From Gemmatimonadota bacterium (lineage in GTDB: Bacteria > Latescibacterota > UBA2968 > UBA8231): 21,648 bases of DNA. The notes under the pieces were generated by a model. That model did no database searches. It had not been told where the DNA came from and saw nothing but the letters and a program-made list of their open reading frames with translations. A program made the position numbers and the translations under genes. Shown piece by piece: positions 17,348 through 21,134 of the stretch. Position 1 is the first letter of the stretch, and the number at the start of each line of letters is the position of its first letter. The DNA lies in the NCBI GenBank assembly GCA_002712305.1, contig PATE01000057.1, forward strand, positions 17,400 to 39,047, given 5' to 3'.

Positions 17348-18133
17348 TCAGACTGACGGGAGACCTTTGAGCAGTTCGTCGGCGCTCACAGAATACTTGC
17401 CGAACATTTCGAGAAGCATGACGGCGCCCCTCGTCTGCCACAACCCGTCGTGTGTCTGGGCAGACTCCATGCCCGTCGTACAGTCGCGAACGATCACGAC
17501 ATCATATCCCCGCCTCGACATGTCCAGGGTCCCATAGTCTCGATGCAGGATGCAGGCGTTGGTATTGAAACCGGCGTAGACGAGGCTCATCACGCCCTCC
17601 TGCTTGCACCACAGGTGTAACTCCTCTCCAGTGGCCACCACCGGCTCATCACCCACGGGCCGGACATCTGGGTGGAGACCCTTGCCTGCACGAAGCTGCT
17701 CACGCTCCGCATCGCGGGGCTCGTGAGGCAGCGCGTATCTGGCGTATTCCCCTTGCCGCTTGCGGAACGCCTGGGGAGGCCAATCCTGCTCGACAGGCCA
17801 GGTCGGGCGGTCCCATCCCTCCAGTTGCAGCCAGTTTGGGTGCCCGTCGGCCTGCTCCGGTGAGGGGGCGTGGACCATGCGTACACCAGCCTCGCGACAA
17901 GCGCTCACGAGGGGCCGCAGCTTCTCCTGAATGATCTGCTCGGCTCGCTGCTCGGTGTCTTTCAGGTAGTGTCGATCCCACACGTCCAGCAGCACGAAGG
18001 CGACCTGTGACAGAGGGACTTCCCAGTCGAGATGGGCATACTCTGTGTTCGCTTCGATCCAGTCGACCCCCTCGTCGACATGCCAGCGGTGATATCGGGC
18101 AGGAAACTGCCAAGTTCTCTCATCAGACGTCAT
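17348..18133 (-). CDS. Cysteine hydrolase, isochorismatase-like superfamily (copy A)
   Basis: This 261-aa protein has the isochorismatase/nicotinamidase fold. The first catalytic Asp is Asp50 in FVLLDVWDRHY, and the nucleophile is Cys194 in AGFNTNACILHRDYG, followed by RRGYDVVIVRDCTTGME. The catalytic Lys of the usual Asp-Lys-Cys triad is not evident where expected, before GEELHLWCKQEG. Relatives hydrolyse amide or vinyl-ether bonds, including N-carbamoylsarcosine amidase. The ATG at 18133 overlaps the stop of the small chimeric ORF upstream (ATGA). It shares HAPSP, DWPP, HRDYG and GYDVV blocks with copy B at 18491-19261, so the two are paralogs within one operon that begins with a creatininase. 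The substrate is unknown. Confidence 0.92.
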   Translation of the reverse strand: MTSDERTWQFPARYHRWHVDEGVDWIEANTEYAHLDWEVPLSQVAFVLLDVWDRHYLKDTEQRAEQIIQEKLRPLVSACREAGVRMVHAPSPEQADGHPNWLQLEGWDRPTWPVEQDWPPQAFRKRQGEYARYALPHEPRDAEREQLRAGKGLHPDVRPVGDEPVVATGEELHLWCKQEGVMSLVYAGFNTNACILHRDYGTLDMSRRGYDVVIVRDCTTGMESAQTHDGLWQTRGAVMLLEMFGKYSVSADELLKGLPSV

Positions 18134-18489
18134 GAGTCGCTCATTCTCGAATCGGGGGTCTCGGGTTTGCCCGTTTGGGCCTCCATTTCGATAGCTCGCA
18201 GAATCATCGCCTCCGCTTCACGTGCGTCGAAAGGTTTCTGCAGGGCCAGGTCGAAACTGGCCAGTCGTGGATCGGTCGGAGCAAGGGACCAACCCGTCAT
18301 GAGCACCAGAGTCAGGGACTGTTCGAGTTTCGCCAGACGGGCAACCTCGTCACCACTGACGCCTGGCAGAAGGGTTGTCGCCAGCGTGCTCGTCGTCCGG
18401 TGTCGGCGAAAGACGATGGCGGTCAGCGTCAGACAGGCTGCCGCCGTGATCAGCAGAAACGGCGTATAGGGCGTAAACTGCCAGTTCAT
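18130..18489 (-). CDS. Chimeric membrane-segment/receiver-domain-tail ORF (collapsed hybrid kinase)
   Basis: This 119-aa ORF joins two ends of what looks like a hybrid sensor kinase. Residues 1-32 (MNWQFTPYTPFLLITAAAC, then LTLTAIVFRRHR) match the start of the 7TM sensor region often found before histidine kinases. From about residue 42 it reads LLPGVSGDEVAR, LTLVLMTGW and FDLALQKPFDAREAEAM, the last part of a response-regulator receiver domain with the conserved Thr (about 68) and Lys (about 88). The phospho-Asp, the kinase core and most TM helices are absent. The ATG at 18489 is preferred to the TTG at 18498. The stop overlaps the next ATG (ATGA), so it is still in a coupled operon. It may be a dying gene or a small membrane peptide; phosphorylation is not expected. 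Confidence 0.7.
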   Translation of the reverse strand: MNWQFTPYTPFLLITAAACLTLTAIVFRRHRTTSTLATTLLPGVSGDEVARLAKLEQSLTLVLMTGWSLAPTDPRLASFDLALQKPFDAREAEAMILRAIEMEAQTGKPETPDSRMSDS

Positions 18490-18490
18490 C

Positions 18491-19261
18491 TCAGGCAAGC
18501 TCCGCAGATTCGATCAGATCGCCCGTCAGAACTGAGTAACCCACTCCGACTTCGACATCCCGCACCGACGCGGCTGTGATCTCGAGGTTATCGAGCGTGT
18601 CGGCCATCTCGATGGCGGATGTGGCGTCGCGCACGAGTACGACGTCGTATCCACGGGCCGCCATCGCCCGCATGCCGTAGTCGCGGTGAAGGACACACAT
18701 ATTGGCCGCGAACCCCACGTAGAAGAGTGTGTAGACCTCGCGAGCATGCAGGAGTCGATGGAGCTGATCGCCATCGAAGATGACCTGGTCGCCTTCAGAT
18801 GGCTCTACATCATCGATGACCCGACGCTCAGTGATGATTCGTTCGAACTCTTCGTCTCGTGCCTCCTGAGGACGACCCAGTTCGGCATAAGGCCCCGTCT
18901 TGGAGCGGAATTCCTCCGGGGGCCAGTCATCGCGCCCCTCACCGGTACGCCGCGGCCCTGCTTCGTCGGGGACCAGATGCGAATACCGGGGTTCACAGTT
19001 TGGGCTCGGTGCATGGATCACCTGCGCGCCGAACCGATCAAAGGTCTCTATCAGAGGCGCGATTCTTTCCCGCGTGATCTTCTCACCGCGTGCCAGATGG
19101 GTTGTGATATAGTGCTCACTCCACACGTCGACGAGAATCAACGCCGTGTGTTGCGTCGGCAGCCGCCAGTGCAATTGGCGACGCTCGAAGCGTGCCTCCA
19201 CCATCCCCGACAACCGCGGGAGGTAGTAATAATCCACTTCCACATTCCACACGTGCCCCAT
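18491..19261 (-). CDS. Cysteine hydrolase, isochorismatase-like superfamily (copy B)
   Basis: This 256-aa protein is a paralog of copy A. It has Asp45 in LILVDVWSEHY and nucleophile Cys189 in VGFAANMCVLHRDYG, then ARGYDVVLVRDATSAIE. As in copy A, the triad Lys is not apparent near FDGDQLHRLLHAR. The middle insert with DWPPEEFRSKTGPYAELG is also shared, so both belong to one subfamily longer than the usual 180-220 residues. The ATG at 19261 shares its A with the TGA of the unknown gene upstream (TGATG overlap), and only one base separates its stop from the chimeric ORF start. Two neighbouring copies with this divergence probably act on related substrates or form a mixed complex; that is inference. 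Confidence 0.92.
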   Translation of the reverse strand: MGHVWNVEVDYYYLPRLSGMVEARFERRQLHWRLPTQHTALILVDVWSEHYITTHLARGEKITRERIAPLIETFDRFGAQVIHAPSPNCEPRYSHLVPDEAGPRRTGEGRDDWPPEEFRSKTGPYAELGRPQEARDEEFERIITERRVIDDVEPSEGDQVIFDGDQLHRLLHAREVYTLFYVGFAANMCVLHRDYGMRAMAARGYDVVLVRDATSAIEMADTLDNLEITAASVRDVEVGVGYSVLTGDLIESAELA

Positions 19262-20034
19262 CAGAAGGCCAGCAACTCGTTCTGGGCATCGATGCGCCGG
19301 GAACGATTGAAGTGGTAGACAGAAACGCCCTGCGACACTTCGACAGGTTCACGAATCAGCAGTTCGGCCCAGCTGTCTCGATGGAAGGCGATGTAGGCTA
19401 GCTGCATACCTTGAATCAGATCGCCGAAGGGCAGCGAGGCGTCGACGACCAATACCGGCCCCGTATCGGGTTGGGTGAAACCCTCGTCATCGTTCGCATT
19501 CACGGTCTTGACCGGATACTCGATAGTGATCTCATAGGGGCCGTCCGTGTACTGCGTGCGTGCCACCATGATTCGATTGTCGAGCACTGCTTGCGCGGAA
19601 CCGGCCCGATCGAGCGACTCCGCCTCAGCATGGGTCAGATCGATCCGAGCGAACTCATACACATCTGCCGTACGCACGACCTGGCGTTCCGGCTGCATCC
19701 CCAGTTCGGGCGGGTGAAAGGGAATCTGCTTACCAGCGATCTCGTAGGTCTTGATACCGATCGCTTCGCCATCATCGCTCAACACCTGAATGAAATCAGA
19801 ATTGGGCTGGGGCCAGATATCACGCTCGGCGCCAACAGCTTCTGTCTTGCAGCTGTCCCCGAGAGCGAACTGACGTTGTCGCGTCCCCTCCCGTACCGTA
19901 CAGAGGCAGTCCAGAGGCATCCGCGCGTTGTTGGTTGGGTATGGCGGTGGCAGCGTTACGGTACCCAGGGGCAACTTGCTGGTGTCGATACGCCACCACA
20001 GAAACGAACGGGCAAAGTCGATGGCCTGCGTCAC
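19261..20034 (-). CDS. Uncharacterised 257-aa protein of the creatininase operon
   Basis: I do not recognise this family. The protein has no signal peptide or membrane segment. It shows FLWWRIDTSKLPLGTVTLPP near the start, a closely spaced Cys pair in DCLC (about 43 and 45), and a C-terminal half with strand-like stretches such as GPYEITIEYPVKTV and GPVLVVDASLPFGDL. The GTG at 20034 is preceded by GGAG seven bases upstream, good support for the start, and its stop overlaps the ATG of cysteine hydrolase B. The coupling suggests a partner or accessory subunit of the hydrolases, or an enzyme of the same route. Base composition is like its neighbours. The start is well supported; the function is open. 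Confidence 0.8.
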   Translation of the reverse strand: MTQAIDFARSFLWWRIDTSKLPLGTVTLPPPYPTNNARMPLDCLCTVREGTRQRQFALGDSCKTEAVGAERDIWPQPNSDFIQVLSDDGEAIGIKTYEIAGKQIPFHPPELGMQPERQVVRTADVYEFARIDLTHAEAESLDRAGSAQAVLDNRIMVARTQYTDGPYEITIEYPVKTVNANDDEGFTQPDTGPVLVVDASLPFGDLIQGMQLAYIAFHRDSWAELLIREPVEVSQGVSVYHFNRSRRIDAQNELLAF

Positions 20035-20047
20035 TCAGGTGCTCCAC

Positions 20048-20119
20048 TCACAAGGTCGTCCAGCCGCCGTCGGCGACAGCGACCCGGCCTTTCAATGAGA
20101 ATCGATCGAGAATACCCAT
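20048..20119 (-). pseudogene. 23-codon collapsed SDR: first and last residues joined in frame
   Basis: The ATG at 20119 has AAGGTGA just upstream. It encodes MGILDRFSLKGRVAV, the usual beginning of a short-chain dehydrogenase just before its TGxxxGxG motif. Without a break it goes on to ADGGWTTL and a TGA at 20048, the usual SDR ending (compare DGGWTAI at the end of the intact SDR at 14999). About 230 residues, including the cofactor and catalytic motifs, are missing and the frame is kept. The ORF lies between the creatininase stop (32 bp) and the unknown gene (13 bp) with ribosome sites on both sides, so a tiny peptide may still be made. Deletion through a short shared sequence near VAV is the simplest origin. 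Confidence 0.75.
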
Positions 20120-20151
20120 TCAGTCACCTTGGCGGTTGGAGCTGTCCATAA

Positions 20152-20967
20152 TCAGTGTTGATCTCGACGTGGAAGGATCGGTTGTGCCTTGAGTTCACGA
20201 ATCAGATCGACGAGACCATCCACGGCGGCTTCGAGCCACGCCGTGCCCTTCTCTGGAGTCGCCTTCGTCGCGTCCCCCAGAACGCCGCTGGCTGTCTGTG
20301 AACTCCAGAACGGCACCAGTCGTGCCCCCGACCCCTCGGGGTGGGTGCCGGCGAGCAGATCTGTGCGGAAGCTGTTCTGCATGGGCGAACGCTCGTCGAC
20401 GGCTTTGTCCATCTCCACCAGCTCGGGCTTGAGCGCCAGGTAGAGCGCTGTTTCATACTCCCCGCCATGTGACGTGCCTCCGTAATCGGAATCGCGCAGC
20501 TCGGTGCCCGCCGTCTTCGCCTTGCGCAGATCCCAGTGATTCACTGAAGCACAGTAGGCTTGCCCCTCGTTGGCAAGCACCGTGAGGCGCGCCGCCAGAT
20601 CGAGGGGTGACGCGTTCGAGCCATGTCCATTGACGATCAGAATCCGTTCAAAACCATGGTGCGAGAGACTCTTGCACACGTCACGCACGTATTTGATGAA
20701 CGTGTCCCATTCGATCGTCAACGTACCGTGGAAGTCCATGTGGTGAGGGCTGTAACCATGGGGAATCGCCGGAACCAACACCGCCTCGTCTGGAATCTGA
20801 GCCACGGCCCGTTCGCAGATCCCCGTGCACAGAACGACGTCCGTGTCCACGGGCAGGTGGGGGCCATGGTCCTCATAGGTGGCCACGGGCAGGACGGCCA
20901 CCTTACCGGCCTGGGCCGCGTCACGAATCTCATTCCAGATCATCTCGGCGAAGCGATACTTGCCCAT
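20152..20967 (-). CDS. Creatininase-family amidohydrolase
   Basis: This 271-aa protein belongs to the creatininase (creatinine amidohydrolase) family, which also includes MftE and other metal-dependent cyclic-amide hydrolases. Metal-ligand pattern: Glu32 and His34 in TYEDHGPHLPVDTD with Asp43, equivalent to Glu34, His36 and Asp45 of Pseudomonas creatininase. Later motifs are GTLTIEWDTF, IVNGHGSNAS (usually NGHGGN, His115) and SHGGEYETAL. The ATG at 20967 is taken because it gives the typical short N-terminus and has AAGGTGAC upstream; an extension would cross the divergent promoter. It leads an operon with two isochorismatase-fold cysteine hydrolases, a combination recalling creatinine or N-carbamoyl amino acid breakdown. 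Substrate is inferred only at the level of small cyclic or linear amides. Confidence 0.94.
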   Translation of the reverse strand: MGKYRFAEMIWNEIRDAAQAGKVAVLPVATYEDHGPHLPVDTDVVLCTGICERAVAQIPDEAVLVPAIPHGYSPHHMDFHGTLTIEWDTFIKYVRDVCKSLSHHGFERILIVNGHGSNASPLDLAARLTVLANEGQAYCASVNHWDLRKAKTAGTELRDSDYGGTSHGGEYETALYLALKPELVEMDKAVDERSPMQNSFRTDLLAGTHPEGSGARLVPFWSSQTASGVLGDATKATPEKGTAWLEAAVDGLVDLIRELKAQPILPRRDQH

Positions 20968-21134
20968 CTCGTCACCTTGTGGCCAATAGGTTCGTGTTCT
21001 GAGAGGCGGAAAACTAACACATCCCTCAGTGTGCCGCGATGGATTGACCACCTTCGGCGACAGGTGCTTCTTCAGCGCTACTTGGCAATCCAAGCAGGAC
21101 CTGACCCCGCCTCACCGTCTGGAGCCACGCCGTC
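20968..21134. promoter_or_regulatory. Divergent gap between creatininase operon and unknown gene
   Basis: The 167-bp region should hold promoters for both directions. GTGTT (20994-20998) and AACAC (21016-21020) form a spaced inverted repeat, and TTGACC near 21046 could be a -35 for the plus-strand gene, without a matching -10. No gene is seen. Confidence 0.35.

Follow-up and report, generated by a model that had tools for sequence, protein, structure and literature searches.

A 23-codon open reading frame as the probable in-frame remnant of an SDR gene in a metagenome-assembled Latescibacterota genome

Results

How does an open reading frame (ORF) of 23 codons come to hold both ends of an SDR protein, and is it debris or a retained peptide? 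The question arises at positions 20048 to 20119 of the 21,648-nucleotide stretch of contig PATE01000057.1 that we analysed (the window), part of an assembly deposited as a Gemmatimonadota bacterium and placed by GTDB in the Latescibacterota (G000 below). A sequence-only reading had seen here an SDR N-terminus joined in frame to an SDR C-terminus, lying in a compact operon, with start, ribosome site and stop directly visible. All three signals, ATG, AAGGTGA and TGA, are found on the minus strand, and the operon and flanking genes are as described, except that the creatininase gene, by comparison with a relative, begins at ~20967 and not at 21093. The locus reads as follows:

20152..20967, minus strand: creatininase-family amidohydrolase (PF02633), 94% identical to that of L009, upstream of the remnant; the mechanical ORF reaches 21093
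20124..20130, minus strand: Shine-Dalgarno-like AAGGTGA, 4 nt before the remnant ATG, common to L009 (GAAAGGTGAGTGATG)
20048..20119, minus strand: 23-codon SDR remnant ORF, MGILDRFSLKGRVAVADGGWTTL, ATG to TGA, from alignment to the ends of the L009 SDR
20075..20119, minus strand: remnant codons 1–15, the N-terminal part of the SDR as far as the Rossmann V-T-G-G; 14 of 15 residues equal those of L009
20072..20074, minus strand: codon 16 at the junction, GCC, 1 nt off the GTC expected from a simple cross-over
20048..20071, minus strand: last seven remnant codons and stop, the SDR C-terminus DGGWTTL; orthologue C-termini read VDGG[WF]T.[LV]
19261..20034, minus strand: 257-aa conserved protein, 86% identical to its G001 orthologue, downstream of the remnant; GTG start with its own GGAG upstream
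18491..19261, minus strand: isochorismatase-domain protein (PF00857)
17348..18133, minus strand: isochorismatase-domain protein (PF00857)

Compared with the 260-aa SDR of L009 (the same record as G001, the sole other genome of the genus that we compared), the remnant consists of codons 1–15 and the final seven, with one changed codon between them; exactly 237 codons, or 711 nt, are missing. Its sequence is identical at 56 of 72 nt to the first 48 and last 24 nt of the L009 gene, a score that none of 200,000 shuffles matched, bearing out the in-frame join of two SDR ends; together with synteny, this rules out a chance likeness. The 23 residues contain neither the TGxxxGxG cofactor motif nor the catalytic YxxxK, no Pfam family matches them, and a plasmid search with the 23-mer returned only weak generic SDR-type and unrelated matches. 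While the peptide is probably still translated, to judge by its sequence it cannot act as an SDR: hardly any of the fold remains, and the glycine motif and catalytic Tyr-Lys are gone.

The sequence-only reading had proposed searching relatives for a full SDR between the creatininase and the 257-aa gene, and such a gene exists. Relatives were gathered by a creatininase scan with one genome per species, giving 53 loci, and an intact SDR directly follows the creatininase in four of them (L009/G001, L056/G022, L012/G023 and L011/G024). L009 has the order creatininase, intact 260-aa SDR, 257-aa orthologue, isochorismatase, and L056 the order creatininase, SDR, 257-aa gene; in L011 and L012 the creatininase and SDR are followed by different genes. 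An uninterrupted orthologue, which matches PF13561 at 2.2e-49 and has as its nearest NCBIfam model, below the cut-off, NF006070 (gluconate 5-dehydrogenase), is present in 10 of the 24 other genomes of the family. The G000 assembly itself (90.9% complete) yielded no SDR orthologue: its best SDR is 40% identical, and nothing matches at 1e-90. Among the relatives examined, none has a short ORF at the place of the SDR, with or without SDR homology; a full-length SDR stands there instead.

The next gene begins with a GTG 13 nt past the remnant stop (window 20034–20050, minus strand). L009 and L056 differ: there the stop of the SDR overlaps the following start (ATGA), whereas in the window the 257-aa gene has a GTG and its own GGAG. 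The 257-aa protein has no Pfam or NCBIfam match, and homologues ~27–31% identical to it occur elsewhere in G000 and G001; it represents a family not yet described, next to creatininase and isochorismatase genes.

Where the break falls bears on how odd the outcome is. From the codons of V16-x-G-G (V-[T/S]-G-G) to those of V-D-G-G, the distance in L009, L056, L011 and L012 is 711 nt, in phase and equal to the missing length. Aligning the ends, as had been suggested, thus located the deletion, but the shared repeat proved to be partial: the L056 pair, GTCACCGGCGGC and GTCGACGGCGGC, agrees at 10 of 12 nt, with no higher-scoring 12-mer pair between the ends, whereas agreement in L009, L011 and L012 is just 7–8 of 12, and 128 of the 6162 window pairs in L009 score as well as the motif pair. 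A cross-over inside the motif predicts the junction GTCGTCGACGGCGGC; the window reads GTCGCCGACGGCGGC, 1 nt apart. Within single genes of the sister genome (G001), 45%, 53% and 63% of exact repeats of 4, 6 and 8 nt, respectively, are in phase, so a deletion at short repeats would keep the frame about half the time without selection. Because the break sits on an in-phase partial repeat, the in-frame loss is less odd than it appears, and calling the precise collapse an unusual outcome was an overstatement. With a match judged from relatives, and weaker in three of the orthologues, the V-x-G-G repeat is a plausible cause of the deletion; a literature search on the mechanism found nothing specific.

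The substitutions in the remnant speak to its age. Over 22 comparable codons, pS is 0.65 and pN/pS 0.13, against medians of 0.68 and 0.17 over 321 intact pairs. Since both values resemble those of intact genes, the substitutions would have arisen under selection on the full gene, and, amino-acid changes not being in excess, the deletion appears to be recent.

The SDR is not the only collapsed gene in the window. A second remnant, missed in the earlier reading, lies among the isochorismatase genes:

18130..18498, minus strand: 122-aa ORF, ATG at 18489, made from both termini of a 714-aa hybrid histidine kinase

It joins ~41 aa of the N-terminus to ~80 aa of the C-terminus of a kinase with HisKA_7TM, PAS, HATPase and receiver domains. 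The kinase is intact at the same place in G001; here ~1812 nt are missing in frame, with the junction near 18366. G022 has neither the histidine kinase gene nor the first isochorismatase gene.

We aligned ~400 kb of G000 with G001 (L086, L092–L111 and L132–L151 against L084–L085, L112–L131 and L152–L171). At the protein level, 9 internal gaps appear in G000 among 475 G001 ORFs with a counterpart, 11 with the two in the window, against 0 among 490 ORFs in the reverse comparison; the rate is rough, as some overlapping frames are counted among the ORFs and the sampled regions were picked for their SDR genes. Several of the 11 gapped genes cluster on contigs C71, C41 and C83. Eight gaps are in frame (the SDR, four histidine-kinase-type genes, and DHDPS-family, peptidase M61 and FliG_C-domain genes) and three are not (an Lhr-type helicase and two others), with frame judged from ORFs, as a DNA-level breakpoint scan gave nonzero remainders for genes plainly open across the junction. 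In-frame loss as proof of selection was considered and rejected: 8 of 11 is high against one third (binomial estimate ~0.01) but not against the 0.45–0.63 in-phase share of 4–8 nt repeats (~0.16). Frameshifts were also compared (22 against 15), but with many lying at ORF ends the counts were too noisy for use. Pooled, six remnants have a pN/pS of 0.29 against the median of 0.17, mildly raised and within the upper 14% of intact genes.

Discussion

The explanation that we consider very likely is that the 23-codon ORF is a pseudogene of an SDR, produced by a recent in-frame internal deletion in which 711 nt were lost through illegitimate recombination or replication slippage. An intact SDR would once have separated the creatininase gene from the 257-aa gene; its middle would have been lost by a break between in-phase codons, those of V-T-G-G, where the Rossmann fold begins and the cofactor binds, and those of V-D-G-G, the conserved SDR C-terminus, with start, ribosome site, frame and stop surviving the deletion. 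Such a loss may have been tolerated since translation of the downstream gene stays unbroken. The only substitution pattern in the remnant is the one left by the former full gene, in support of the plain decay that had been offered as one outcome, and it is probably debris without function.

Real at the assembly level, the deletion is known from one metagenome-assembled contig, and its strongest competitor is that the cells carry a full SDR, the junction having come from chimeric reads, from contig merging or from a minority deletion allele chosen by the assembler. The G000 contigs give some grounds for this. Several (for example L092, L093, L111 and L142) bear patches of scattered single Ns, which suggest merged contigs, and among the 53 relative loci only L040 and L057, whose accessions (PAQK and PBOD) fall within the range of a Tara Oceans set (PMC5769542), share the pattern. 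That set was assembled with Megahit and Minimus2, the latter requiring a 100-base overlap at 95% (PMC5769542), and because the N pattern is common to L040 and L057, G000 probably comes from a pipeline of the same type. The one-sidedness of the internal gaps, 11 in G000 against none in G001, points the same way. The window, however, contains no Ns; the shared motif, at most ~12 imperfect nt, is far shorter than a de Bruijn k-mer or the Minimus2 overlap; and no intact copy of the SDR was found elsewhere in the G000 assembly. A control comparison of the N-bearing G025 with a complete relative showed 0 such gaps in 99 genes, a weak test given that ~2 were expected. On balance we regard an artefact or strain variant as unlikely, and infer that the loss took place in real cells.

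The other outcome that had been offered, selection for a leader-like peptide whose translation, ending 13 nt ahead of the next start, drives that of the 257-aa gene, is very improbable. In its favour, the Shine-Dalgarno-like site, the ATG, the frame and the stop have all survived at that short distance from the GTG, and coupling was probably ancestral, given the overlap of SDR stop and next start in L009 and L056. Against it, a short ORF at this place occurs in no relative examined, the 257-aa gene has its own GGAG, the substitutions reflect the former full gene, and the similar collapse 1.6 kb away, with others in the genome, fits decay better.

As an internal-deletion pseudogene, the remnant resembles bacterial pseudogenes that arose when the DNA between short direct repeats was lost. 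It shares with them its lost middle, its joined ends, the short partial repeat at the break and its syntenic intact orthologues; it differs in being in frame, with an open 23-codon ORF and a ribosome site, and in having an imperfect repeat judged from relatives only. Both ends derive from a gene for a classical SDR (PF13561 / PF00106), but glycine motif and catalytic residues have gone, along with almost the entire fold. With leader peptides and short upstream ORFs that couple translation it shares a short ORF and ribosome site near a gene; unlike them, it originates from an enzyme gene, and none of the relatives examined keeps it as a short ORF.

By itself the remnant is ordinary: a clear example of gene loss, with a deletion whose position, size and reading frame agree with a codon-phase repeat of two conserved SDR motifs. 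The one-sided excess of gaps in G000 is a more interesting lead than the single remnant, and may reflect either a burst of deletions or an assembly problem. As a tentative and rather doubtful proposal, the lineage could recently have entered a burst of deletions that remove large internal parts of genes, mostly in frame (~2% of sampled genes). They would strike accessory genes, hybrid histidine kinases among them, and yield two-ended mini-proteins; the share in frame would follow from how short repeats sit in codon phase, perhaps aided by selection against losses with polar effects. Should the wider pattern be an artefact, some merged metagenome assemblies hold false mini-genes. If it is real, the make-up of genes biases internal deletions in coding DNA toward keeping the frame, and some of the short ORFs met by gene finders are the joined ends of larger genes, not new small proteins.
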